Assembly (NCBI RefSeq): GCF_000151315.2
Contig: NW_011887302.1
Span: forward strand, 372,001 to 436,000
Origin: Capsaspora owczarzaki ATCC 30864
Lineage: Eukaryota; Opisthokonta; Filasterea
Direction of reading: 5' to 3'
DNA: 64,000 bases
In this document: positions 9,784-52,456 of the stretch, piece by piece
Position numbering within the stretch: position 1 is the first letter of the stretch
How the letters are laid out: every line of letters starts with the position of its first letter
Position numbers and translations under genes: made by a program
The notes under the pieces: generated by a model
What the model was told of the DNA's origin: nothing
What the model saw: only the letters and a program-made list of their open reading frames with translations
Database searches by the model: none

Positions 9784-11751
9784 ATGACGTTTGTTCTGAA
9801 CATGAATCAGAGACAGCGCGCGTTGTATGATCAAGTCAAGAATGCGAGTGAAGGGCTCAAGTAAGCGAAAGCCCGAGTTGATTTGGAACACAGGGTTGAC
9901 AGCGTGTGTATGCTGACGAGAATGGAGGGAGCAGTTTGGATAAGCAGCAGATTTTTGGCGACGCAGAAACACAGGCGGTTGCTGAGGCACTCAAAGTGAA
10001 CACGAAGCTGACCTGGCTCTAGTAAGGCATGACTGGTGCATGTGAGTGGGTGATTTCAAGCAGATGGGCGTTCGGAGCGCTCACTGATGAAAGGAACGGA
10101 CAGTCTGCGCCAGAATCAGATTGGCGATCCTGGAGCACAGGCGATTGCTGAAGCCCTCAGAGTGAACACAAGACTGACTGGGCTCGAGTAAGGCATCTCA
10201 CTCTTGTTGGTGCATGTGAGTGGGTGATTCAGAAGAGTGCTCATTGATTGAGGGGCTGAACAGTCTGAGTGCGAACCAGATCGGCGATGTTGGAGCGAAC
10301 GCGATCGCTCAGGCAATCAAAGTGAACAAGACGCTGACTTGGCTTCAGTAAATATTGATCGCTTTAAGATGCTCTGACAGCCGTTAGACTCATGCTCCAA
10401 TCTGACGATGTAATTGACAACAACAACAGTTTGAGCAAGAATTTCCTGACCGACACTGGAATCACTACAATCAGGCAAACAGGCAATACCATTTGTAAAT
10501 TGGAGTAAGACTGCTTGTTTATAGGATTTTTGCATGAGCAATAAGCCACTCACCTGCTTTGGCGAACGTGGGTTTCCGAATAGCAACCTTGACGAGCAGC
10601 GTGTTCCGTCGCCTGCCGAATGGGCTCAGATTGCAGCTCGTGTTGTTGCGAACGTGGCAGAGATTCAGCAATTGCGCTCCGAAATTGCTGCCAAAGAGCA
10701 AGTCCTCGCTGCCAAGGACCAAGAGCTCGCAACCAACGTGCAGGACCTGCAACAACTTCGCTCAAATCTCGTTGCCAAGGATCAGGGGCTTGCAACCAAG
10801 GATCTTAAACTGCAGTCAGCTCTTGATCGGATCGACGTACTTGAGCGCAGTCAGCCCGCCGGTGGATCCGCGTCAAGCTTTGATCAACCCATCCCACAGG
10901 TGCCTCTCGCCACTCTCGTCTCCGCCACGAACAACTTTGCTGATGATTCTCTGCTCGGCGAAGGAGCATTTGGTCGCGTGTATGGCGCCAGTTTGCCTGG
11001 ACCTCCCGTTGCCGTCGCCATCAAAAAGCTGTCCGCCGAATCGATCCAACACTATGCAGCATTTCAGTCAGAGTTGAAATCTCTATCTAAATTCCGTCAC
11101 CCCAACATCATTGTCATGCTGTCCTATGCCGAAGCTCAGGATGAATATTGCTTGGTGTACGAATTCATGCCAAACGGTTCTGTGCGCGATCGCTTGAATC
11201 GCAAAAACAACACTCCTCCACTGACTTGGTCCCAGCGGCATCGCATCGCGGCTGATGTTGCCCGTGGCATGCACTATGTCCAAACCGCCTTCGCAGGCCA
11301 TGTTCTGTTCCACCTCGACCTCAAGACGGACAATGTTCTGCTGGACGCGCATTACAATGCAAAAGTGTCTGATTTTGGTCTTGTCCGTGCTGCCGAGCAT
11401 CTTGATGAGAAACGCTACCTTCGTACTCAGAACGCTCAAGGCACAGTTGCTTACATGAGCCCCGAGTTCCTCGTTGATGGCAGAATGACCATCAAGACCG
11501 ATGTGTACGCATTTGGCATGATTCTGCTCGAGCTGGTGACGGCAATGAAGGCAGCTGTGCAACTGAAAACGGATCTGCGCAAGGCTGTGAAAACCCAAAA
11601 TGTCATTGGCATGCTGGACTCGGCGCTCAAACCAACCGAAGCGGAGCAGGAGAGCATCAACGAGATTGTCACTCTCGCGCTCAAGTGTCTTGATGAAGAT
11701 GTCGATGAGCGTCCGTCTTTTGGCAGCATTCTCGTTCAGTTGGGTCCTTGA
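9784..11751 (+). CDS. LRR, coiled-coil, Pelle/IRAK-like protein kinase
   Basis: Six exons, 9784-9860, 9935-10021, 10104-10187, 10264-10347, 10430-10504 and 10539-11751, join to 539 aa. The leader is a close copy of the preceding gene's leader; four one-exon LRRs follow. The last exon starts at 10539 after a weak GAG acceptor. It encodes a coiled coil (about 163-240, heptad-like AEIQQLRSEIAAKEQVL) and a kinase domain with the plant RLK/Pelle signature ATNNFADDSLLGEGAFGRVY. Visible key residues are the glycine loop from about G276, Lys298 in VAIKK, Asp396 in HLDLKTDN and Asp414 in DFG, so it looks catalytically competent. The HRD arginine is leucine (HLD), a non-RD loop. SPE replaces APE. It is cytosolic, since no signal peptide or membrane segment is seen. 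The partner and ligand are unknown. Confidence 0.9.
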
Positions 11752-26548: not shown

Positions 26549-29500
26549 ATGCGGCCTGGTTGGTCTTGTGTTGCCGCCCTGTTGCTGCTAGCAGCAATGA
26601 CTGGTATTGCCCCACTCGGCGTCATGGCGCAGACCAACGACGCGTGCTCGGTTTGCAACTGCAGCCCAGGCTATGTGGGTTTCTGCCAGCCCTGGCTCAT
26701 GGTCGACCCGACTCAAGTTCCATACAACATCCCGCCCGAGACGACAGACTTGTGAGGGAAAAACAAAACAAAAGAGTTCGGTTTTGTTTTGAAAATTAAA
26801 ACCAAAAAAAAAAAACCACCAAGGACCTTACCTTTGATGACCATTCTGATTGCGACTCGGGCGTCTTGAATGTGCAGGGATCTAACAACGCTTCAACTCT
26901 CGTACATTCCTTATTATGCGCTGATGGGACTGTCTTCACTGAACTCATTGTAAGACCATTTGCGAGCGTTTTGGGACCTGTTTGCGTGGTTTGTCGCTGT
27001 TTAATTTCAAGATTGTCATTGGATTTTTTGCTGACTTGTTTCAACAGGTCGTTGAGTGGCGTCTCGTACATTGAAAATGGTGCTTTCGCGGACCTCGCGC
27101 TGATGACGACCTTGTACGCGGAGTCGGATTGTGCCTTGAATTGTTGGAAAGTTGACTCACAAACGTTTTGACGAGCAGGACTATTTCATTTGATTCGTCT
27201 GTCACCACCTTGGCGGTTGATTGGTCGGGCGTGTCCTCGTTATACTCGCTGAAGTAAGGGATGAGAGATCTGCATGACGCTTCCAGTTGGTTTTGCTTGC
27301 GCTAACGACTGCTGCGTTCTTGAAAACAGTTTGAATGGCCCTAACCTTTCTGAACTCCCGGATTCTTCATTCAGTGGTCTGGGCTCTTTGATCGAGCTGT
27401 AAGTTCACTACGCCCTTCGTCAACTGTAGATTGATGCTAATTTTATTCTACTGTGAATGCTTTTGTTGTCAGGAGCGTGAGCGGCCCATTGACAACACTT
27501 GGAAACTGGCTGTTTCTCAGTACCCCTATGCTGAACCGTTTGTACGTTGGATGATGCTCTCTTACCAATTGGATGATGCTCTTTTACCTGTTTTTGGCAT
27601 TGCTGGCTTTCGCTCGTTCGCTCACTGTCTTGCTAACTCTTCAGATCATTGTACTCCAATCAACTGCCCGTCTTCCCTAAGCTTGCCCTGAGCCCCCTCT
27701 CATCCCTCATGGGCCTGTATGGTAGTTTTTTTGCGAATTCGATGGGCTGATGGAAATTGAGTGCTCAATTTGTCACGCCGATTGGACTCGACAGCAACCT
27801 GCAGGGTTCCCGATTTACGTCCCTTCCTTCCGACGCCTTCGCGACTCTGACCAGTCTTTCGTTCTTGTAAGTTTGTGTGGCAAAGTGCGCTCACGCCATT
27901 CAAAACCACAGCGAGCTCACCTCCTATCATGTCGCGTAGAGATCTATCCAACACGCTGCTCACCGCCATTCCCGACGATGTGTTTGCTTCAGTTCCGCTC
28001 GGGAATTTGTGTGCATGCTCTTACAATGATTTGCGCCAACATGTTAGAATTTATGGCTCACAAACCAGACAATCTTGCAGGTATCTTGGTCAAAACACAA
28101 ACCTTGGCCCCCTTTCCGGTGGGGCCTTCCGCGGACTGGGTTCGACGCTGGTGGAGCTGTAAGCCAGTGTCGAGCAACTCCTTTCGTCTTTCAGCGTAGA
28201 TTTGGGAAGATGTCGCGGCACTCAATGACTCGGATTTGCTCGACAGGGACCTGGACGGTTGTAGTTTTACGTCTATCACGGCCAGCGTTTTGAATCTTCC
28301 CCAGCTTCAGCGACTGTACGACTTTCAGATCTTCTTTGTAGACTTTCTATCCCAGCTCGTTTCTGTTCTGATCAACACGATTGTTCGATGCTAGTGACCT
28401 TTCGTCCAACCAGTTGACCTCGCTTCCGGACGGTCTGTTTTCAAACTGCCCGCAGTTGACTTCACTGTAAAGATTCCGCGTCCAGAAGCGCCAAAGGTTC
28501 ATATGTCCAGCTCCACTAATGATTTGCTTTTCCTCTGCTGCAGTTCCCTCCACAGCAATTCGATAGCCTACGTGGGCCCCGCCGCGTTTTCAGGGCTCGT
28601 GAATCTCCTAGATGTGTAAGTGCCAACAAGAAGGACAGGATGAAACGGGAGTACTCACAGTCCTCAATTCGGCTGTGTAGGAACTTGCATGGTCTTCATG
28701 TGACGACCCTCTCTGCGAGCACTTTTGCAGGGCTGACCTCATTGACCAGCATGTAAGCAATCCTGCCTCTAAAGTCATGCACGACAGGACACCTGACCTT
28801 TTGCTTTTTTTATTTTTTTGGTTTAGTTCGCTGCATGTCGGTATGCTCGAGACCATCCCGCCCCACCTGTTTGATGGTCTTCAGTCTCTTCAAACCATGT
28901 AGGAAGCATTCGCTGTTGAGTGTAGTGCATTGATTCGATTCTCGGAAGCGCTGACTTTTTCTATCACAATGATTCAAGATTGTTGCAGCATAACCACCTC
29001 CAAACGCTGCCTCCTGGATTGTTTCAAGGATTGAATGCGCTTAGCTTTGTGCTAATGTCCGACAACAACTTTGGCTCAGTAGCACCTCCGAGTACTTACG
29101 GCGCTGCATCGAATCCGAGCAGTAAGAGTGATCTTGGTGAAAGGGGGCACAGGCGTTAGCCTGCCACTCAACGACGTCTTGGTTTCGCGGCTTGGTTGAC
29201 AGGTTGTAACGCGAACTGTGCTACTTGCTATGGCGGATCTTCCAGCCAATGCTGCGGGCTGAATTGCCTCACTTGCAATAGTGGAAATCTCTGCCTAACT
29301 TGCTATGCCGGCTATGACATGATGAGCGGCTACTGCCAGCCTTCCGCGGCCATGATTGCCAGAGCTTCGGCTTCTTCCGCCTCGGTCGCCTCTGCCGCAT
29401 CAGCCTCTTCTGCTACAATTGCTTCTGCTGCATCTGCTTCCTCTGCTACAATTGCGTCTGCTGCATCTGCGTCCTCGGCTTCTGTAGCTTCTGCTCTGGC

Positions 29501-31715
29501 AGCCACTGCTTCATCGGCATCGGCTGCTTCTGCTGCCTCTGCCTCTGCCGCTTCCGCTTCCTCGGCAACAGTCGCATCCGCCGCATCCGCTGCATCTGCC
29601 TCATCTGCCTCGGCCGCTTCTGCTGCTTCCGCTCTGGCTGCCACTGCCTCGTCTGCCTCGGTTGCATCTGCTTCCTCTGCCTCTGTCGCTTCCGCTTCCT
29701 CGGCAACAGTCGCATCCGCCGCATCCGCTGCATCTGCCTCATCTGCCTCGGCCGCTTCTGCTGCTTCCGCTCTGGCTGCCACTGCCTCGTCTGCCTCGGT
29801 TGCTTCTGCTTCATCGGCAACAGTTGCGTCCGCTGCATCTGCCTCGTCTGCGTCGGTTGCATCTGCTGCTTCGGCCGCATCTGCTTCATCTGCCTCGGCC
29901 GCTTCTGTTGCGTCCGCTCTGGCTGCTACTGCCTCTTCTGCTTCGGTAGCATCTGCTGCGTCCGATGCTTCTGCTCTGGCTGCCACTGCCTCGTCTGCTT
30001 CGGCGGCATCTGCCTCATCTGCGTCGGTTGCATCTGCTGCTTCTGCCGCGTCTGCTTCATCTGCCTCGGCCGCTTCTGCTGCGTCCGCTCTGGCTGCTAC
30101 TGCCTCTTCTGCTTCGGTAGCATCTGCTGCGTCCGATGCTTCTGCTCTGGCTGCTACTGCTTCGTCTGCCTCGGTTGCATCTGCGTCATCTGCATCGGTT
30201 GCATCTGCTGCGTCCGATGCTTCTGCTGCTTCCGCTCTGGCTGCTACTGCTTCTGCTCTGGCTGCATCTGCCTCTTCTGCTTCTGTAGCATCTGCTGCGT
30301 CCGATGCTTCTGCTGCTTCGGCGGCATCTGCCTCCTCTGCATCGGTTGAGTCTGCTTTGGTTGCCACGGCTTCATCTGCTTCAGTCGCATCTGCTGCATC
30401 TGCATCCGCTTCAGTCGCATCTGCTGCATCTGCATCCGCTGCGTCCGATGCTTCGGCTGCTTCGGCGTCATCGGCATCAGCAGCTTTTGCTGCTTCGGCT
30501 TTGGCCGAATCCGTTGCGTCTATGCTTACTGACGCAGCTCAACGTGCCTCAGCAGCCTCGGCTTCCTCGGATACAATTGCATCTGCCTCTTCTGCTTCCG
30601 TTGCATCTGCTGCTTCCGCCGCGTCTGCGTCATCTGCTTTCGATGCTTCAGTCGCTTCTGCCGCTACTGCCTCATCTGCATCTGTTGCCTCGGCTTTGGC
30701 AGCGAGTGCCTCCTCTGCTTCCGTGGCGTCGGCCTCTTCCGCCTCTGTTTCAGCATCGTCGGTCTCTGCCGTGGCTGTGTCTGTTGCCTCGGCCTCTGTC
30801 GCGTCGATTGTCTCCGCCTCCGCTGCATCTGTTGCGGCGGTGGCTGCTGCGTCCGCTCTGTCCCAGCTGGGATCTGCGGCCGTGGCTGCATCAGCGGCAT
30901 CTGCGGCATCTGCTTCGTCGGCTTCTGTTGCTTCTGCTGCATCAGCAGCATCTGCTTCGTCCGCTTCCGTTGCCTCAGCTGCGGCATCTGCTTCCTCTAC
31001 GTCAATTGCGTTTGGTGCAACTCCCAATTTGGTCAATCCCGTGTCCAATAACGCCACCAGCTCTTCGTCCATGCCAATCATTGTGGGCGTGATCCTGGGC
31101 ATGCTTGCATTGCTCATCGTGATTGTTGCTCTGCTCATCTGGCGTCGCCGTCACCGTGCCATTTCCCAACCCATCGCCGCCGAAACCGGAGCGACCCAGC
31201 GCGCGAAAGTCAAATCTGGCGAAAAGGCCATCGCCGAGATGACCACCAATCCCCTGTACGACGTTGTGGTTCCTCCTCCGGTCGCATACGATGTACTGAA
31301 GCCAACCGCGGCCAAGACTGCAGCCAATTACGATGTCCTGAACCCAGCAACTGCAGCCAACTACGATGTCCTGAACCCGGCAACGGCCGAGGCTTCAGCC
31401 AACTACGACGCTCTGACCCCGCAGGCGGGATCTTCGGCGACCAACAAGGAGGAACCGATCTATCAGAGCACCGATATCAGCCCTTCTCCAGCAATTCAAG
31501 TCGAAACGAGCGGCACATACGTCAGCGTGGCGCCGTCGGCAGACTGCACTTACGCTGATGTCGGCAGCTCCCTTGCAATTGCAACGAACTCTTCCGTGCA
31601 GCATGCAGACTCTGGCACCTCATATGCCGCCATAGCCGCAGTGCCCCCGTCTTCCGCAGACAACTATGCAAAGATTGTGAGCGGTTCGGAAACCGACCAT
31701 GTCTCCACGCTCTGA
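26549..31715 (+). CDS. LRR receptor with Ala/Ser stalk, one TM helix and ITAM-like tail
   Basis: Seventeen exons join in frame to 1,285 aa: 26549-26751, 26878-26949, 27048-27113, 27179-27253, 27330-27398, 27473-27541, 27645-27716, 27795-27866, 27940-28008, 28081-28158, 28247-28315, 28395-28466, 28544-28615, 28681-28752, 28827-28898, 28979-29121 and 29203-31715. Order: signal peptide (MRPGWSCVAALLLLAAMTGI), a Cys-rich cap (CSVCNCSPGYVGFCQPW), about 14 extracellular-type LRRs, one per phase-2 exon of about 72 nt, and a Cys-rich module (CNANCATCYGG to CLTCYAGYDMMSGYC). Then come an Ala/Ser stalk (about 500-1050), a TM helix (about 1072-1096, IIVGVILGMLALLIVIVALL) and an RRRHR stop-transfer. The tail (about 190 aa) carries NPLY1134, then YDVL at Y1144, Y1158 and Y1169 and YDAL at Y1183, followed by IYQS, YVSV, YADV, YAAI and YAKI. 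Y1158/Y1169 fit YxxL-x7-YxxL. In other organisms such motifs recruit SH2 proteins once phosphorylated. There is no kinase domain. The ligand is unknown. Confidence 0.92.
29352..31012 (+). repeat. Ala/Ser-coding low-complexity tract
   Basis: About 550 codons made almost only of Ala, Ser and some Val/Thr/Asp/Glu in an ASAASASSASVAS-like rhythm. Codons are mixed (GCT, GCC, GCA, TCT, TCC, TCG), and longer blocks recur, for example around 29580-29660 and 29718-29800. It encodes the receptor stalk and leaves several spurious long open frames on both strands. Confidence 0.9.
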
Positions 31716-31972: not shown

Positions 31973-33660
31973 TTACAGCGCAACATGTTTGATCACCAGT
32001 TGGTGGCACACAGGGCAGCGGTTGTCCAGCTGCGTGCTGGCGATCGTGGCACAAGAGCTGCAGAGCGCAGAATGGCCACAAGGCTGGGCAACTGTCGCAA
32101 CTGGGCGCTCGTAGCAATGCATGCAACGGTCAAAACTGGGTGCCGCGTTCGCGGGCGCCATGTATGGTTCGCTGGACGACGGAGGATTCGTGAGGGGCTC
32201 GTCGAGTATGGGCGCTGTGCTGCACGGTGTCGATTTGTCCAGAATGGGAGCGGACGGCAATAACAGTGCCGACGAGGCTTCAACAGCGGTGGCCATGGAG
32301 GCACTTCCCATAGCAACAGCGTCAGTGTATGCCGGAGGTGGCGAGGGGCTCCGAAGTTGACTCTGAGGCAGAGATTGCGACGGCGCTGCAGAAGGGGCTG
32401 CTGGCGTCGTGCCATAGTGCGCAAAGGTGCCCTGCTCGGAATTCGCCACAATCAGAATCTGCTGGAGCAATTCGTCGTCTTCCACGGCTGCGCGGACCAG
32501 GGACGGCAAACGGAACAAATCGACCAGCCAGAAGCATCCAAAGCCGCCAAACGTGAGCAAGTACACGAGACCCCAGCAGTGACGGCGCAGGTAGAAGTGA
32601 TGCAGGCCAAGGAAGCCCATGGGGAACCACAGCATGTACGCTTCGTGGAGCCAGATGCGCTGCCGGCGAGCGGCTCCAGAGTTGGCGTTGCGCACAAGCC
32701 AAACGATGCGGAACCAATCGACCAGCCAGCCGACACCAAGCAGACCAAAGGTGAAAAGGTACAAGAAGAACCAGCCGACACGTCCCAGATACAGGTGGTG
32801 CAGGCCGAGCATGCCCAGGGGCGAGAGGGTCAACTTGGCAGTCTCCCAAACGGTCTTTTCCGAGGACGACTCGAGCGCCATGGAGATGGCAAAGGAGGAT
32901 TCTTTGGGGAAAGCCCAGGTCGCGTCCATCATTGCCTTGTATTGTTCCTTGCGCCGCTCCGAGTTGGCCTCGCGCACCAAGTGGGGCAGCATGAACAGGT
33001 CGGTCAGCCAGCCGACGCCCAGCAGGCCAAAGGTGAAAAAGTAGATAAACCCCCAGAGCGGCTTGCCAACGTAGAACATGTGGGCGCCTGTTTTGACCAC
33101 AAATGACATATTCAGGCATATTGCAAATGAGAGAGAGGGGGGGGTTGCAGTTTGATTGCGCGCCCAAAAAAAAAAAAGTCTAGGATGCTCAGACTCACCG
33201 AGCACTCCAAGCGGATTGAGCCATAGAATGTAGGCAAACAGGAGGCTTGTCTGTGGCTCTGGGACAATTTCGCGCGCGACACGGTGCTCGTGCTCGATCT
33301 TGGCATCCTTGTAGAGCGACGGAAGGCGGAAGAGATCGACCACCCAGCCCACGCCCAGCAGGCCGAGCGTGAAAAAGTACACAAAGCCCCAGCGGATGCG
33401 ACCCAGGTAGAAGTGGTGCGCGCCTGTCCCAACAGAGCAAAATTGATGATGATGATAATAATAATGATGATAATAATAACGATGATGATGATGATGATGA
33501 GTGCGAGTCGTGAGAATTCAAATGCAGGCAAACAGGACTTGTGTGGGAAGATTTGTTTACTTCGTTTTTGGAACTCTCAATCGTCCCATCCAGTCACACT
33601 CTCACCCCACCGCCGGACAGCATGGTTTATAAAACCAAGTCCAGACACACAAAGAGAAAG

Positions 33661-42415: not shown

Positions 42416-45400
42416 TTATTGCTTGCCGCCAAGAACAAGCAAATCACGAAGCCGACGGACGATGGAGTGAGCAAACGTGAAAGATGTGCTCGGCTTGAAC
42501 TCGAGCTGAGCCTGCACATGAAGGAGAGAGGAGAAAAAAAGGAGGAGGAAACAAAAATGGTGAGCACCAACAACGCAAAACCAAGGTATCATCAAAAACC
42601 AAAAAACCAAAAAGCAAAAATTCCGCTAACCTCGCTGATGCTGGAAATCTGAGTAAGAACATCTCGCAGCGCAGTGAGCGCATCTTGCTGCAGCTGCTCA
42701 ATGTCGTGAGCAGTGAGATTTGCGACAGACGCCGACTGCAGTGCAAACCCAAGCGCGTCGCTGGACGCGTCCGCGCCGTTGCGAGCAGGAGATGACAGTG
42801 TGTTATCTGTAAATGCGCCTGGTCGCGTCACCACAGCAAGCTGACCCAGCGGCTTGAAATGCACCAAAAAGTATTCGAGGTGTTGCCACAGCAAGAACAC
42901 GGTGTTTTCAATAATGTCTGTGCAGAAACCAGTCAAGAACGGACATGGTCAGTATTCCATACACTCAGATGCTGCAAATAGATGGCTCGCAACTGTCGAC
43001 AAAAACTCACATAACAAAGAATTAATCATGTTGGCGTCCTCTGCGGCCGTCTGCATCAAGCGAACACGCGCCAAATCCTGGCGTTGGGAGGTGGAAATGT
43101 CGCTGGTGAATGGGATGCCAGAGTCTGCCGCAAGCTGCCAGATTTCGAGCGTCATCACACAAAGACCGAAAATGAATTGGTCAGTACAAGACAAACACTA
43201 CACTGCCCAATTGCAAACTCGGCGGCGTACCTGAGAAACTTCCTCGCTACTGAGTTCGGAAACGTGGGAAGCGCGATACAGCATCCGCTTGTGGTGATCG
43301 GCGACTTGAAGCAGCGAAACGACGCACGATTGCAAAAAGTGGGTCATCAAGCCCAATGTCGGCTGGTGCGCACTGACGTTGCCTGTAGTGAACAGAACGA
43401 AAACAAAGCAAATAAAAAAACGAAAAATAAAAAGGGATTGAGATCGGGTGAGCGATGAAACAACAAGACATGAAACAAAACGACAAAGTTTTTGTTGGTA
43501 AAAGTCACACTACCTTCAAGTTGCGGGCTTTGGTCGAGAAAGTGGGCAGGAAAAGAACTCGGCGGTTGATTGCAGAACCTACACCCAAAACAATCTTGTG
43601 GTTTAGCTCATTCGATTTTTTTTTTCAAAGTCTTCAAACACACCACAATGCCCTGCCACCTCGTTGACACCAAAATACTCCTCACCTCGACTGTCAGACA
43701 GGGTCAAAGCATGACAGTAGCTGACAAGGTTGGCGCAGATCTGCTCGGCAGCCACACGCGCGGCACGCTGCTCGGCTTGCGAAAACTCGACGGCGCGAGT
43801 GGCCCACCATTCTCGTGCGCTGAGGCTGCTGTCGCCACTGGTAGCAATAAAGGTTGTTGGGGGGCCAACAGTCAACGATGCGGCGAGCGTGTTGGAGTGC
43901 GCCGAGCTGGTCGCAACCTTGCTGCCAGCCGCAACAATCAGGGCCGGCATGAATCGCGGCAGAAGGTCGATGATGAGCTGATGGAAGCGCGAAGCACGCG
44001 CCTGCAGAGAATCCTGAATCAGGCTGTCGTGCTCGGCAACCTGCGCAAAAATGGCCGTCACTAACGACAGCTCCTCGAGCGCAGCAAGCGTGAGGCGAGG
44101 CAGCCTGTCGCGAAGAATTGTGGTGAACGTCTCTGCGTGGCGGTTGATGAAGGCAAGCGCTTGACGCGCGGCATCGAGGTGGTGCGGGCAGGACGAGAGC
44201 ACGCTAAGAACCACACGAAGCACGGGCAAGACCAATCGATGGTACCGCTCGAGGGAGGTCGGCACGAAAGCGCCATCCGCCTCCATGTCGTCCGCGAGCA
44301 TGGCAGAAAGCACGCGCGTGCCGTTGCCGTTGCCCGAGCCGCTGGCCGTCGCACCACCATCAGGGCGAGCGTCAATGAATCCGCAGTCGCCCAGGATTGG
44401 CAGCAGACGGAACTGAAGCAGACGCTCGGCGCCATCGCGGCCTTGGCTGGCGATTCGCAGCAGGAAGGCCATCTTGGACTCGTAGACGAAGAGCGGGTTG
44501 AGCGATGCTGGGTTTTCCACCAGCATTTCTCGCAGCGGCACGTCCTCAAGCGCAAGGTCTGCCACAACTTGCTTCAAAAACCCGCGCTCAGTCACGTACA
44601 TCATCCACTTGTTGTTGAAGCGGTCGCTGCCCACAAGCGTGTCAAGGATGGCAAACGCCATGGACTTCCAGACTTCTGGGCCATCGCGGGCATCGCTGCA
44701 AAGCGTGCGCACAAACACTTCGCCGTGGCTGGCAAAAATGTCGGCATTGCCCTGGATCAGTGCACGCTGCTGGGTGCCCAGACCGTCAGTGCCGACTGCG
44801 GCAGAGCCCAGCATGCCATCGCCGCGCTGCTGGCGCGGGAGCCACGACGAGAGTGCAATGCTGTTGGAGGCAGCCTGGAAGGGCGAGGTCACCATGCCTC
44901 CGGTAGGCTGCGCCAGCTGGATGTAATTCAACAGGGCGCCATACAGGTTGCCACGCATCGGCTTGGAGGACCCAGCCCGCAGAATACCCGCAAGCAGCCC
45001 GCGAAGAATGGCGTGCAGCTGGTCCACCGGCAAACGGGAGGTGGAGGCAGTCGAGACAATGCTCGACAGGTTGGACAAGAGCGCTTCGCTGTTGGAGGCA
45101 GAAGCGCCGCCCAGCGAGAGCGCGTCCAAGCCGAGGGCAATGCGGGCGGCACTGTGCTGACGCAATCGCGTGAGCAACGTGAGCGCAACGCCCGCCATCG
45201 ACGAGGCAAGGGGAATGGCGCAGTCGGGAGCGCTAATCTTTGGAAGAAGCATGAGCACGAGCTCGTACAGGACGTCCGCCTTGGTCTCGAGCTCGAAAAA
45301 GAGCTCGAACGTGCTGGTCAGGGAAATTTCCACAACATGGCGCCACGCTTCCAGCAGACGCGCCTTGCCATGGAAGAGCTCGCGGGACTGATTGCGATGC

Positions 45401-48400
45401 AGGCACCAGAACAGGACATTGTGAATGTCGTGGGTCACGCTGTGGCTGACTTGGAACCCGTCGTCGGCGCCAGTAACCTGTCGGAGGAAGGTGTACAGGT
45501 GCTTGAGATCGATGACGCGGACATCCCGCTCGTTCAGCATCTCAAACTCCTCCAACTGAATCACGGCGGGCAGGCTCGGGAGGGCCGGCATTTCGGGCTC
45601 GGTAAAGGTGAGGTCGATGGTGTCCAGGATCTCGAGCATGCGGATGCGCGATTGCTCCATGCGCTGTTTCTTGGTAGCGCCGGTGCGTCGTCCGTTCGGT
45701 CGCGCTCGGCCGCGCCAGGCAGCCATGTCGTTTGCCGCAGCAAGCGAGTCATTGTCCACGCCGGATTGGTACAGGCTGTCGTCGGACTCAAAGTACGTGC
45801 TGCCGCCATTGCTGTGGTAGTCACCGTACACACGACTAGCATAGCCAAAGCCAATATCCGAACCACCTGCACCTGCAGAAAACTCGGATGCGTCGTCGTC
45901 ATAGTCGCCGTCCATCCGATCGTCCTCGAGAGCATACTCGTCCGTTGCGTCATCCGTGTCGAGCCCGGAGGACGACCACGCATTCTCGCTAAACAGCAGC
46001 TGGAGGAGGCGCTGCGTGTGCGATCGCTGGCCACTCTGGGCGGTGATGTGGATTTCGATCGCCAGAGTGCGGAGCAACCACGAGCGCTGGTGCAAGGAGC
46101 ACAGGTCAGAGTAGCTGCGCCCGAGAGGAGCAGAGGCGGGCACAACACCACGACGGATGGCCGAATCGGGTCGCCCACGCGCCGGCAGGTACTTGACGTG
46201 GCGGTAGAAAAAGTCATTGTGGTTGCGAAGGAAGCGCATCGTAGGGCCAGTGGTGAGGCGGTTGACGCAAAGCTCGTGGATGAGCTGGTAGCAAAGCTCT
46301 CCAAGACGAGGGTGGAATCGCATCACGTCCGATCCGTAACGTGACACCAGGCCAGCATCGAGAATGTCAATCACTGCGTGGAAGCAGGTCAGCATGGCGT
46401 GCGGCGTGTTGGGGTCTTGCAGCGTGGATGTAGGCACGGGGCGCGAGACCTCAAAGCCAAGCAGCAGGTGAGCAAGGTTTGGCGCAGGCTGCGTCTGAAG
46501 ACAGTCCAGCAACAGGGCGAGAATGCCTTGGCGCGTCGCGTTGCTCATGCGCGCGTCATGCAAACGCTCGTCACGGTGAAGGGGCGAACGAGCTGCGCCC
46601 AGCAGGAGCGACTCGACAGGTGCCCATTCTCGGCGAATAAACTCAGAGCTCGCGGGCGACACGAGGGCGTTGGACGCAAGCTGGGCAATGGCATCGACGT
46701 GTGTGTCGACATCAGCGCTCGATGTGGCATCAAACCCATCCTTGGCCGAGAGCTGTTGGTCGGCCGACGCCATCACCAAGTCGCCTTGAGTCACGGGCAG
46801 CCAGCGCTCCAGCTCCTCTTCCTCGGATTCGTCTTCGGCCAGACGTTGGCGAAGGCCTTGCAAAATGTTGCCCAGTTCACCGGACTGTTGGATGAGGTGC
46901 ACAAGCGTCACGCGTGCCGTGGCGACCTGACCGAGCCAGTGCAGCAGACGCGTCGCGCGATAGCAGATTTCGGGACGACGGTGGTAGCCCGTCAGTTTGG
47001 CGATTTGGATGGCGTGCGTGGTCGGCAGTCGCGAGGCGTCAGAATGCATCGTGAGGAGCAGGCGGTCGAGCGACGACACGGTGATGCTGGTATTCGAGAG
47101 GCGGATCTTCTCGATGAGGGAGCCCTGCGCTTGGAAAACTTGCTCGAGCAGCCGCAAAGACCAGAGCATTGCTTCTTCAAAAGCCCGGCTGGACTCTGCC
47201 AATTGCGGATCCGACGAGCTGGCAGAGCGATCAAAGTCCTCGTTCAAGGCAGACATGCCCTGGTCGACAATCCACACGACCTTGCGCGCCAGCTCGGAGC
47301 TGTTCAGCAGCGTGACGAGCAAATCGAGCCCTGGATTGACGACAGACAGGCTGGTGCCGTCGTTGGCTTGTCCGCGGCTGCTAATGGACAGATTGGACAA
47401 GCTCGGCGTCGGCATCTCGCCCGAGCTGCTCTCCAAATCTTGGACGGTCGGCGTGTACGCTTCGATGGCCAAGAGGAAGAGACGCAGACAAGCAGAAGCC
47501 ATTTGCCACTTTTGCTTCGGGCAGAGGTACGCGCGTGTGTTGAATCGCAAAAACACGCGATCGCGAAGGAAGCCCACGTAGGGTCCGAGCAGCATGGGAC
47601 TCGAATAGTCGACCAAACGGTTGAGCAAGTACAGGAAGGCAAGCGTGTACGTGTAAACGCGCTCGTTGGCCTCGATTTGCTCGAGTTCGTAGCGGATGCC
47701 ACCTTCGACAAAGCCAGCCAATCGAATGGCGCTCGGTCCCGCGGCAGCACCACCAGCAACAAGAGCGCTCGCGCCAGAAGCGGACACACCACTGCCAGCG
47801 GCTGCATCCCCTGCAATATCCACGTTGCGATCACCGTTCGCCTGTCGGGAGCCGTTCAGAACGCTGTGTTTGCTCAACAGGAGCCACATGTCGTCGGCGG
47901 AAGAGGTGCTGTTGACGAATGCTGCCAGGGCGTACACAATCTCGGCCTTGAGTTTGGCCGGGACACGGGACCCGAGCAGGCCAAAGAGAGCGTCGGACAC
48001 ATACTCGGGTTTGTTGAGCGAGCTGAAGGCAGAAGGGCTGGCACTGACGACCTGGCGGATGAGACGCAGCGTCGACACGGTTGTATCGAGCTCGTACGGA
48101 GCCATCTCGCCAGTCGGGTTCGCGGCGAGCTCGTCCACGTACTTTTTCAAGTTGATAAAGAGGGACGACCAGGACAAGATGCGGCTGGCGCCCGAGGAGA
48201 CGCCCAGTCCGTGGAGCTGGCTGTTGCTGGAGCCGCTCAAGAAGCTGAACGTGGCGTTCGCGGCCTGCATGCCAGACGAAAGTGCAACCAGCAGTTCGAG
48301 GAAGGCGGCCAGATACGACACGGGCGCCTCTGCAGTCACGTGGATGAAATGGGGGAGATTGAGCGAGCCAGAGACGGAGGCGATATCCCAGAACTTGAGG

Positions 48401-50727
48401 CACAGCTCGGGCTGGCCACGGTAGGTTGCGGCGACAAAACGCAGAAAATCGTCAAACGGTGTGTGACCCGCCTGATCGAGAGCGCGCTTGCGCTGTTCAA
48501 TCACCGCATCGCGCCGTTCAATGTGCTCCTGCAGTTGCTGTTGCAAGTACTGAAGGTGTTGCTGCTCATTGTTTGCGCGCGCGCTCGAGCCGTAAAACGC
48601 CGTCGTCGCGTCAAAGTAACCGCCCGCGCCGGCACCAGTGCCCCAGTTGAAGAGGTTGCGATTGTCCGAATTGCCGCGGCCATAATTGGCTCCGCCGCGC
48701 CCAGAATTGAGCGTGAACGAGGCGCCAATGTCAGCCGAGAGCTCGGCTATTTGGTCTTGGAGCTGACGCACCTGTGCCTCGAGCAAGTCCTCCTCGGTGA
48801 AGCAGTTGCGCATCCGGGCAAAGTCGTCGTCACAGATGCTGCGCAGCTCTTCGATGCGCGGGCGCATGGACTCAAAGATGGAACAGATAAACTCGTCGAG
48901 CTTGGACACGAAAAACTCGCGATTCTCATCCCGCAGCGAAAAGCTGTGGGACGCCATGAGCTTGGAATGCAGGTAAAAGAAGGCGCCTTGCTCCAACGCT
49001 GCGCCAAAGTACCGCGAAATTTGGGTGTCGACATCGTTGTCCGCGTTTGTGAAGGCTGTGGCAGCCGCGGGCGCATTGTGCAAAAAGAGGGACCACGCGA
49101 GATACAGCACAGAGTTCAACGCAGGGCCTGTTGCGGGAAGCGGGGCATCGAGCGTAGCTGGAGTGCTCAGGACGATGGCCGCAGAGCTCGAGCTGGATGC
49201 CGCAGAAGAAGCCTGGCTGCGTGACAGCTCTTGGTCGAATTGACGGATAAAGTCAGAGTTGTTGGCCAGGCCGACGGCGCCGCCAGCAATCACAGCAGAT
49301 GCGACGCGCGGGGCCGGGCTGGTGACTGCACCACTGTCCCACTCACCGGCGTCCGTGCGAAGGACGTCGAGAACCGCCAGGGCGGTCATGAGCAGCGTGG
49401 CAGTGACTTGGTTTGGAACGTCACGAAGTTCGCTGCGATCGGACTTGTTGATCGAAGAAGCACCACTACTGGCGCTGGCAGCGCTGGCGCTCGAGTCTTG
49501 TTGGAGCTGCAACAACTGTTGCTGCTGCTGTTGCTGTTGCTGTTGGTGATGCAGCTCTTGGTTTGACGCGGAGGTGCGAAGCAAGGCAAGAAGCTTGAGC
49601 GATTCGCTCGCGTTGAACGAGGACTGATAGGCCATGTAAAACAGACACTCTGCCAGCGTTTTGCGCTCCTCGCGCATGTAGGATGTTTGGATGGCGGGGT
49701 AGGGCAGCGCACTCATGGTCGATTCCAGCGAGCCGATCAGAGTAATGATGGTGATGCGCACGCTGTCCGTCTCAACCAGCGTGTCCACGAAACGGCGAAC
49801 GACGGCGATGAGCTGCTCGCTCACCTCGGAGGCCATGCGGGCCTTGATCAACTGGAGAAGCGAGCCAAGCAAAAAGCGACGCTCAAGGTGGTACAAGTGC
49901 ACCGCTGCAACAACTGGATCGTGGCCAAACTGGTCCTGCTGCTCGACGCCGTCCTGCAGAAACTCGGCGCAGACGATTTCGTTCAACAGCAGGAGGTCGC
50001 TCAGCTTGAGCGCCTGCTTGACAAAGTCTGGCGAGAGACGGCGGCTTTCGCCTCGCAACACTGCCTCGCCCTTCTCGACGCGTTGCCGATCGGCGGGGTT
50101 TTTGGCAGGGTTCTTGAGCAGGTTGATGAAGGACGGGCGGTGCTGCATGAGCAATGCTTCGAGCTTGCGTGCAGCTGCCGGGGTGCCCTGCAGTACGCAC
50201 TCGTCGACAGTGGCAGCCAGCTGTCGGAATGAGGATGCGAGGGCGGCGGCCGCCGCTGCACCTGACGCAGAATAGGAAGCGTTCGTCAAGGTGGAGGTGA
50301 TCACAAGCGGCGGGGGCAGAGGAGGTGCTGCGGGCGCCACTGCCGCTGCAGCAGGCGCAGCTCCCAGGCCTCCCAACATGGCGCTCTGTTGACCGAGGCC
50401 GAGGCCGCCGCCGAGTGGTTGCGCACCCAAGCCTCCCAAGCCTCCCAAGCCGCCCAGCCCGCCGACACCAGCACCAGCAACAGCAGGTCGAGGTGCTCCA
50501 AGGCCTCCAAGGCCTCCAGCGGGTGCCAGACCACCGATCGGTGCAAGTCCACCAAGACCCCCACCAATCGGAGCAGCAGCGCCGGGCAGGGCACCGAGTC
50601 GGGGAAGTCCAGCAGCTCCACCGCCGAGCGCGGGAGCCGCGGCTCCAAGACCGCCCATACCGCCAAGGCCCGTGCCACCGAGGCCAGCGCCAAGGGTCGG
50701 ACGAACTGCTCCCGGCAACAACGCCAT
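42416..50727 (-). CDS. NUP205: NUP205/Nup192-type nuclear pore scaffold protein
   Basis: Six exons, 43679-50727, 43514-43578, 43231-43382, 43011-43197, 42631-42917 and 42416-42511, join to 2,611 aa. Nup205 features are clear near residues 165-290: RKLEALLMQHRPSFINLLKN, then ALKLSDLLLLNEIVCAEFLQ and AAVHLYHLERRFLLGSLLQL. Near the end, IIENTVFLLWQHLEYFLVHF matches the family. The rest is long alpha-solenoid. The inner-ring nucleoporin binds NUP93 and shapes the pore. The first 140 residues are an extra GLGG-type Gly/Leu/Ala tract. A Gln run lies near 49520-49550. The 3' exons are the least certain: exon 1 uses a GTATTT donor to keep frame, and the third intron would be only 33 nt (43198-43230). 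Human NUP205 is about 2,012 aa. Confidence 0.92.
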
Positions 50728-52456
50728 TGGTTTTGCTTTGTTACCAGAACCTCACCGAGATGACTTGATGTGTGTGTTTTCGAGTTCGAGAGTTGGGCGG
50801 AAAGAGAGAGAGAGAGCTTTGGTTTTGGACAAAGACAGGGTTTCTCTCGTTCTTGCTCGAGACCTGCGAATGGATCCAACCCAAAACACGCATAGCGTTC
50901 AAACGGGAGCACGCAACAGTGAGCATGTGAGATGAGTGGATGCAGATTCGATGCAGAGCGGGGGAAGGGCGAGCGAAGACGAGGAAGAGACGACGACGCG
51001 CGGGCAACAGCTTTCCCCCAAACCCTTCTTTCCCGCCCTCCCAGAAGCGGCATCCACGATGCGCAATGCGACAATCTGCGACTGATGAGCTCGTCTGTGA
51101 GTGCAAACGAGCGGTCGTGGCTCTTGGCTGTGGATCCAAAAGGGCGCGCAATGCTTTCCCCAAACACGAGGTCCTTTGCGCTTCCATCGCAACCCGCACG
51201 CCGTCACACTCGCCGACTGCAACGCAGATGGCTGATGGCAGGAAGTGTCCCAGTGCTGTGATGCAAAGTGCCACGCTTCGGCTCCAAGTGGGGGAAACGG
51301 GGACGACGGAGCGAGGACAAGCCGCTCGCATGGGCTTTTTCAATGCAACGATCTCACAAAAGTGAAAAATCAAAAAAATCCAATCCTTCTTCAATCCTTC
51401 AATCATCAAAAGGTCAGTCCCAGACGCTCAAGGGGGGGGAGGGGACGTTTGACTCGGAGTTCAACTTGGGGATGGGGATGGAAATAAATGGATGGGGGAG
51501 GACAAGACAGAGAGCGAGAAACTGTCAAAACCAACCAAAAAAAAAGTGAAAGAAAAAAACTCAGACTGCAGACTCAGACTCGCACGAGAGTGACAAAGGG
51601 GAAAACAATGGCAAAGTATACCTATAAGCAATACACAAAGTACGATCGAGGTGGACGTTGGATTCAGTGCTTTGAGGAAGAGAAATCGAATCGAGGAAGG
51701 AAGGTTGTCGGAACCTGGCCTGAATCACCCCACTGCAGCATGCTAGAATGGCCGCAGGGGGGGGGTACAATAGCGTGTACTTGAGAGTACATGTATTGTG
51801 AAAAATGAGGGGGAAAGATTGAACGGGACAGAGAATCCAATGCACAAGAATGGAGTTTTTCTCCAATGTTTTGACCGTCTGAACAGGAACATGGCCTACA
51901 ACACCCGCTGAGGCATGCTAGGATTGAATGTGACAATGTCGTGTATTTAAGAGTGTCGCCAAGAAGCAGGCGAGAGTGTCGACCAGGAGGCTAAGCGAGC
52001 AGCACAAGGATTCAATCTTTTGTTTTTTGTGCTTTTTCCCCCATACATTATTTCGCTGCTTGCATTTTCATTTCAGAACATTCATCCAATCTTATCATCT
52101 GCTCAATTTTCGCATCGACTCAACGACGAATACCACTCAACAACAACCATTTTCGGGGGAATCCCCGCTCTTCCACAACAAAAATCGCTTTCAATTGCAA
52201 TTTGTTCGCAATGATGATTTTTCCTCCTTTTCGTTCTTCCTTTTCCTTTCCCTTTGCGTTCCCACTCACTCACTCACTCTCTTACAGCCATTGTGTGTGT
52301 TTTCAAGTCTTTGTCGTCACACTGCCCATGCACCAACTCTTGCAACCCATCTCAACAGCCCGTTCTCCCTTTGCTTTTTTTTCCCACCCCGCTTCCCTCT
52401 TTTGTAAAACCACTCTTTCTTATTTTTATTTTATTTTTTTTTTTATTATTGTTCAG
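50728..52456. promoter_or_regulatory. 1.7-kb divergent intergenic region with a diverged repeat pair
   Basis: Lies between NUP205 (minus) and a secreted-protein gene (plus). It includes two similar segments (about 51710-51789 and 51886-51954, listed separately). A pyrimidine-rich tract ends in TTCAG right at the ATG at 52457, suggesting a 5' leader intron whose acceptor abuts the start codon. No gene is seen. Confidence 0.5.
51710..51954 (+). repeat. Pair of diverged direct repeats upstream of the secreted-protein gene
   Basis: Copy 1 (51710-51789) and copy 2 (51886-51954) share GGAACxTGGCCT, CAxCATGCTAGxAT or close variants, then ACAATxxCGTGTAxTTxAGAGT, in the same order. Copy 2 ends about 500 bp before the ATG and contains TATTTAAG, which could be a core promoter. 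Confidence 0.55.

Follow-up and report, generated by a model that had tools for sequence, protein, structure and literature searches.

An LRR receptor gene with a tyrosine-rich tail

The window, a 64,000-nucleotide stretch of the Capsaspora owczarzaki ATCC 30864 genome (contig C11, positions 372001–436000; the searched genome comprises 27,456,641 bases in 29 contigs), contains a gene predicted to encode a receptor with an extracellular leucine-rich repeat (LRR) region and a tyrosine-rich cytoplasmic tail. In this genome a published Capsaspora GAPDH qPCR primer (PMC9170242) has one exact match, and a 90-base coYki arm and a coYki primer of that paper have none. The receptor gene lies at 26549..31715 on the forward strand, as do all of its features given below. 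Its structure, a predicted model without transcript support, has 17 exons and 16 GT–AG introns and encodes 1,285 residues, with the stop codon directly after the tail. Exon 1 (26549..26751) carries a signal peptide, with a hydrophobic run from residue 5, and an N-terminal cysteine cap. Fourteen one-LRR exons separated by phase-2 GT–AG introns follow (26878..28898), and exon 16 (28979..29121) adds the final LRR and a linker. The LRR region matched Pfam LRR_8 with an E value of 1.5e-44, and the solved chains that scored best against it were animal-type ectodomains such as LRRC15, IGFALS and LGR4. Next comes a ten-cysteine module, CxxxCxTCx7CCx3CLxCx5CxxCx10C (residues 450–493; 29205..29336), for which the Pfam search gave no match. 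A Ser/Ala stalk of ~559 residues (260 Ala and 201 Ser; 29346..31022) with internal tandem repeats leads to the transmembrane (TM) helix (residues 1073–1094; 31074..31139), after which the chain continues WRRRH. The hydrophobic segments of the protein span residues ~5–27 and ~1068–1097. No tyrosine kinase (TK) match was found within 3 kb downstream of the cysteine module, and the tail is ended by the stop codon. The LRRs, ten-cysteine module, Ser/Ala stalk and TM helix of an LRR–Cys–stalk receptor plan are thus all present. The preliminary description of this DNA, made from the letters alone, had listed the same architecture from signal peptide to tyrosine tail, and its residue numbers (for example, Y1158 and Y1169) match the gene model exactly; its LRRs also stood, while its count of about 14 becomes about 15 (14 one-LRR exons plus one C-terminal LRR). 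Antisense to the stalk, at window positions 29333–30538 (reverse strand), is an open frame of 402 codons, for which codon composition is the probable cause.

The cytoplasmic tail comprises 191 residues beginning with WRRRH at 1095 and contains ten tyrosines. The first is part of an NPLY motif of the phosphotyrosine-binding (PTB)/talin type (Y1134, NPLYDVV; 31248..31259), which starts 37 residues past the end of the TM helix. An array of YDVL, YDVL, YDVL and YDAL (Y1144, Y1158, Y1169 and Y1183; 31287..31415) follows with gaps of x10, x7 and x10. Farther on are Y1202 (EEPIYQST), Y1221 (TYVSV) and Y1232 (TYADV) (31461..31562), then a C-terminal pair formed by TSYAAI (Y1256), a TxYxxI site resembling an immunoreceptor tyrosine-based switch motif (ITSM), and NYAKI (Y1270) (31617..31676). 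Outside the array the sites therefore read YDVV, YQST, YVSV, YADV, YAAI and YAKI, and Y1202 (YQST) is the only tail tyrosine without Leu, Ile or Val at +3. This inventory, NPLY, three YDVL, one YDAL and five later tyrosines, agrees with what had been reported for the tail, and the tyrosine array is confirmed. With YxxΦ counted in the window tail as tyrosine with Leu, Ile or Val at +3, nine of the ten tyrosines qualified compared to 1.7 expected from composition-preserving shuffles, and none of 5,000 shuffles reached nine. As a control, 463 overlapping 190-residue segments from seven chosen other open reading frames (ORFs) of the window contained at most three YxxΦ sites and no pattern of the immunoreceptor tyrosine-based activation motif (ITAM).

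A receptor family with kinase and kinase-less members

Searching the genome with the TM helix and tail of the window gene returned 38 places at E values up to 10. Twenty of these, the window gene included, were read; among the 19 others, 13 tails end in a stop (L010–L012, L014, L015, L017, L019, L020, L022, L024 and L026–L028) and six loci continue into a TK, as in receptor tyrosine kinases (RTKs) (L013, L016, L018, L021, L023 and L025). Eight further stop-ended tails were read beyond these first 20 places. A plain LRR regular expression gave almost no credible matches in the scanned loci (14, then 20), and a hidden Markov model (HMM) built from the 14 repeats of the window gene itself was used instead on the window and 20 loci. 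LRR-like exons were found upstream of seven kinase-less tails (L029, L031, L033, L036, L039, L046 and L047) and of three RTKs (L032, L037 and L040, with few in L032, where the sequence read lacks 4198 bases), with nothing scoring at least 6 bits upstream in the other ten scanned loci. All ten LRR loci also possess the cysteine module. The LRR–Cys–stalk–TM plan is common to the window gene and three RTKs of the same genome, the difference being that the window gene has a YxxΦ tail in place of the kinase. The main survey of such premetazoan RTKs is said to be that of Suga in 2012.

The extent of the family was estimated with a 44-residue composite of the cysteine module, which found 129 genome places at E values up to 1 (124 of them below 0.01); places are not quite genes, as a few sit two per reading frame. 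For 42 of the 129, a same-strand TK match lies no more than 3 kb downstream. The other 87 are an upper bound on genes that lack a kinase: scoring covered 134 of the 545 first-look TK candidates, and pseudogenes may account for some modules. The 134 TK places used for this crossing were typed from the list of 176 matches to PF07714, the rest being fragment places omitted or unlisted. Sixteen of these 87 places, picked by tail similarity, were read from TM helix to stop, and all 16 consist of a TM helix followed by a tyrosine-containing tail. A composite of the commonest tail gave 53 matches at 37 loci: 33 stand 253–1219 bases behind a cysteine module without a kinase match, none behind a kinase-matched module and four where no module was found. 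At 15 of the 37 loci more than one piece matched, several being in-line duplicates of the tail. The window gene accordingly belongs, as predicted from these searches, to a large family that joins related outer parts to either a kinase or a docking tail. Tail units of ~86 residues in tandem were observed at C12:721383-721850, C5:271952-272479, C9:1309212-1309736, C3:944580-945095 and others. L038 and L041 are kinase-less receptors with tyrosine tails and a similar Ser/Ala stalk that have another ectodomain type, alike by eye.

One pair of loci exhibits both outputs behind nearly the same outer part. L044, an RTK on C13, and L045, a kinase-less gene on C5, share 97.07% identical DNA over 2,011 bp in sense orientation (L044:4267-6271 and L045:4106-6116). 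Identity runs from near the ORF start through cysteine repeats of the TNFR type, not LRRs, and through the TM helix, and the alignment ends 79 bases past the start of the TM match; the cytoplasmic parts gave no further DNA match in it. The tail of L045 (counted as L026) has 12 tyrosines, five of them YxxΦ. The two loci show that in this genome a single ectodomain is coupled both to a kinase and to a tyrosine tail, and the identity may reflect paired receptors or gene conversion.

Tyrosine motifs of the kinase-less tails

Motifs were counted in 21 kinase-less tails collected by similarity to the tail of the window gene, with L024 (NPL repeats and no tyrosine array) left out. YxxΦ was found at 97 of 157 tyrosines, compared to 21.6 expected (0 of 2,000 shuffles). 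The juxtamembrane tyrosines of six RTKs, of which only L013, L018 and L021 have the cysteine module and which represent a small share of the 42 kinase-matched places, follow another code, with YxxΦ at 11 of 46 (Fisher p = 8e-6). After de-duplication to 13 tails with 103 tyrosines, the comparison became 65 of 103 versus 8 of 40 (p = 4.7e-6).

Particular residues were also enriched around the 103 tyrosines. Glu was enriched at −3 (19 versus 5.4 expected), Pro at −2 (20 versus 7.5, five of the 20 being NPxY sites) together with Val, and Asp and Ala at +1 (29 versus 5.9 and 38 versus 15.1, respectively); at +3, Leu, Ile and Val were enriched and Phe and Met were not. This profile is close to the consensus peptides that PMC10065799 gives for three human kinases, Src (DECIYDMF), Abl (DEPIYAVP) and EPHB1 (PEPNYEVI). 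TxYxx[IV] sites numbered 11 in the 13 tails compared to 3.8 expected (4 of 5,000 shuffles), and several relatives carry TxYAT[IV] followed by VDYAxI. The general pattern of the immunoreceptor tyrosine-based inhibition motif (ITIM), with [ILVST] at −2, was rejected as a signal of its own, as it amounts to no more than the +3 excess explains (31/75 versus 6.8/17.8 in shuffles). Crk-type YxxP was a secondary motif in the 21 tails (22 versus 12.3 expected, reached in 9 of 2,000 shuffles) and is absent from the window tail.

YxxΦ and NPxY are classic sorting signals, and the tail could instead belong to an endocytic or phagocytic cargo receptor, with YxxΦ bound by AP-2 mu and NPLY by clathrin adaptors independently of phosphorylation. 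Ten sites exceed what sorting requires. Such a role also fits poorly with a profile that is kinase-substrate-like (Glu at −3, Pro at −2 and Asp at +1), with +3 enrichment limited to Leu, Ile and Val to the exclusion of Phe and Met, and with the lack of a comparable YxxΦ excess in the six RTK juxtamembranes. Capsaspora TM proteins with cytosolic NPXY have been noted with regard to clathrin-dependent lipid uptake (PMC13171883). Balancing these points, we regard a cargo receptor as unlikely, if still worth serious attention.

Alternatively, the NPLY motif could act as a talin anchor of the kind present in integrin beta or SibA, leaving the other tyrosines secondary. NPxY occurs in 11 of the 16 cysteine-module kinase-less tails read, and one of three genome matches to the IRS-type PTB domain is strong and lies in a 3,220-residue frame that is possibly talin. 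In Dictyostelium, SibA has two NPXY motifs and is thought to link TalA to the membrane (PMC12686525). Talin anchoring as the main function is nevertheless improbable: NPxY makes up only one of the ten sites here, and it is absent from 5 of the 16 cysteine-module tails and from all five other kinase-less tails counted.

Tandem duplications in stalk and tail, and the multiple matched pieces at 15 of the 37 tail loci, would suit a neutral by-product of repeat expansion in which the tyrosines have no function. Conservation already contradicts it. In a clade of nine paralogues, seven tyrosine columns have a mean pairwise identity of 0.85 compared to 0.58 in 118 other columns, and tyrosine outlasts most of its neighbors. 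The preliminary description had raised the case of tyrosines that vary while neighboring residues hold; among these nine genes, all of them paralogues, the reverse was found. The +3 rule is moreover seen in dissimilar tails, and we consider a functionless array scarcely credible.

SH2 proteins and the question of ITAM signaling

Genome searches, run exon by exon, detected 176 matches to the TK domain (PF07714), 34 to SH2 (PF00017) and 16 to the protein tyrosine phosphatase (PTP) domain (PF00102). The SH2 and TK genes on which the preliminary description made its reading depend are therefore present. L004 is an SHP-type gene with SH2–SH2–PTP order, with PTPN11 as the best match to its SH2 region (6.8e-89) and a score of 3.6e-53 for the PTP domain. 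A PLC-gamma gene has PI-PLC X and Y, two SH2 domains and an SH3 domain, and a RASA1-like gene has SH2–SH3–SH2–PH–C2 with no RasGAP domain within the stretch read. Seven genes combine an SH2 match with a following TK match, each with one SH2 domain (in one case in two pieces). Another gene with two SH2 domains (C9:345598-346966), read only between its SH2s, had no TK match within 6 kb. A p85 iSH2 candidate was discarded: the one match was below the cutoff, and ~10 kb separate it from the closest SH2 match of that contig.

The preliminary description had taken Y1158 and Y1169 for a canonical ITAM, YxxL-x7-YxxL, and a true ITAM would recruit a Syk-like tandem-SH2 kinase through the paired YxxL sites. 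The spacing was reproduced: the window tail has one x7 pair, with four strict matches within x6–12, and a strict YxxL/I-x6-8-YxxL/I pair arose in only 161 of 20,000 shuffles of the tail. The pair lies within a 33-bp tandem duplication (31317..31384; 2.1 copies with 94% matches), in which two adjacent 33-base units are identical at 27 of 33 bases. Because of this position, the x7 spacing seems to have arisen when the repeat was duplicated, and it may or may not be used. Strict x6–8 spacing occurs in 5 of the 21 tails, all paralogues. Gaps of x6–12 were in excess when all 21 tails were counted, near-identical paralogues included (34 of 76 versus 18.7 expected, 0 of 2,000), became marginal in the 13 de-duplicated tails (20 of 52 versus 13.2, reached in 89 of 4,000 random placements) and dropped to 14 of 44 versus 11.0 (750 of 4,000) when the window gene was removed. 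Gaps of five or fewer were scarce in the de-duplicated tails (3 versus 14.3 expected, with 0 of 4,000 placements as low). ITAM spacing is not demonstrated as a feature of the family; the sites merely keep apart.

No Syk/ZAP-70-type tandem-SH2 kinase was seen in the exon-by-exon search, in which 134 of 545 first-look TK candidates were scored and one two-SH2 gene was partly read. Two papers point the same way: Syk-family kinases were collected from sponges to primates in a search of metazoan proteomes only (PMC9601881), and Syk is listed among vertebrate-emerged families (PMC8662651). Even with 34 SH2 matches in the genome and the exact x7 spacing in its favor, Syk-type signaling was rejected as the leading explanation, given the single SH2 of each SH2–TK gene, the duplication and the spacing that is not family-wide, and it is highly improbable. 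The earlier interpretation held up as far as a kinase-less TM receptor among TK, SH2 and PTP genes, and failed in its ITAM/Syk part. CD3, FcR and CLEC-2 are ITAM receptors. Similar to these, the window gene encodes a kinase-less TM receptor with a YxxL pair at x7; unlike them, it has ten mixed sites, the spacing is not conserved in its family and no Syk-type kinase was seen.

A candidate docking receptor

In immune-type signaling, recognition is split from the kinase: the receptor has no kinase domain, is phosphorylated by a separate enzyme and then attracts SH2 proteins. We consider it fairly probable that the window gene encodes an adhesion or recognition receptor of this general kind, with a tail that serves as an array of phosphotyrosine docking sites phosphorylated by other kinases. 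Ligand binding would cluster the receptor, and an RTK relative, a Src/Abl-type kinase or one of the SH2-kinases would phosphorylate the tail. The SHP2-like phosphatase, PLC-gamma, the RASA1-like protein and single-SH2 proteins would then dock, and talin or another PTB protein may bind NPLY. By analogy with animal docking receptors, such a receptor would be nearer in style to ITIM/ITSM–SHP2 than to ITAM–Syk.

The resemblance to receptors that signal through ITIM/ITSM and SHP1/SHP2, such as PD-1, consists of the TxYxxI site TSYAAI, the TxYAT[IV]–VDYAxI order in relatives, the TxYxx[IV] excess and the SHP2-like SH2–SH2–PTP gene. By the usual definitions of ITIM and ITSM, the motif order in PD-1 is reversed relative to the window tail. 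The ectodomain here consists of LRRs rather than Ig domains. The likeness is convergent at most, and no inhibitory outcome is claimed for the window receptor. Also comparable are the choanoflagellate TM proteins with repeated YxxP, an SH2 motif, for which Capsaspora candidates are also mentioned (PMC5043372); those motifs are for the Crk SH2 domain, and the section that describes them mentions neither LRRs nor kinase and kinase-less partners.

Several points weigh against a docking function. Arginine columns in the nine-member clade reach 0.83, near the tyrosine level, mostly in the basic cluster after the TM helix. Paralogues do not count as independent cases, and similarity to the window tail was the means by which the tails were collected. 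The RTK comparison covered juxtamembranes only, and docking sites in RTKs often lie C-terminal to the kinase. YxxΦ and NPxY double as endocytic signals, and the spacing signal is weak once tails are de-duplicated. For Shc/Numb-type PTB (PF00640), no match was obtained in a search that had no power.

The docking receptors are possibly paired with RTKs. A more specific proposal is a paired-receptor system outside animals, in which ectodomains, of LRR and other types, common to RTKs and kinase-less, SHP2-recruiting ITIM/ITSM-like partners would be matched by gene conversion or duplication and serve recognition of self, partner or prey, for example in aggregation. The clearest instance would be L044 and L045, since they are 97% identical with a break just after the TM helix; the proposal as a whole is speculative and rather doubtful.

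If docking is the correct explanation, docking-receptor logic, possibly with activating and inhibitory pairing, would predate animals, because a large family occurs in a unicellular holozoan that also has an SHP2-like phosphatase and RTKs whose ectodomains match, with no Syk-like kinase seen; the order of events would then become testable. Methods for transfection (PMC6001378) and gene disruption (PMC9170242) exist for Capsaspora, so a practical test of docking is within reach. PMC titles and abstract openings on Capsaspora or holozoan receptors, TKs and SH2 contained no prior description of the receptor family, subscription literature being outside the scope of this survey.

Other genes of the window

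Downstream of the receptor gene, an ORF at 31976–33517 (reverse strand) oddly combines a RING finger at its C terminus with four matches to the TM2 domain. A protein kinase domain is encoded at 10525–11748 (forward strand; PK_Tyr_Ser-Thr 6.4e-49 and Pkinase 4.5e-43). On the reverse strand, 43606–50751 encodes a Nup186/192/205-type nucleoporin, and 53737–55398 matches a TMEM175-type potassium channel in two stretches.

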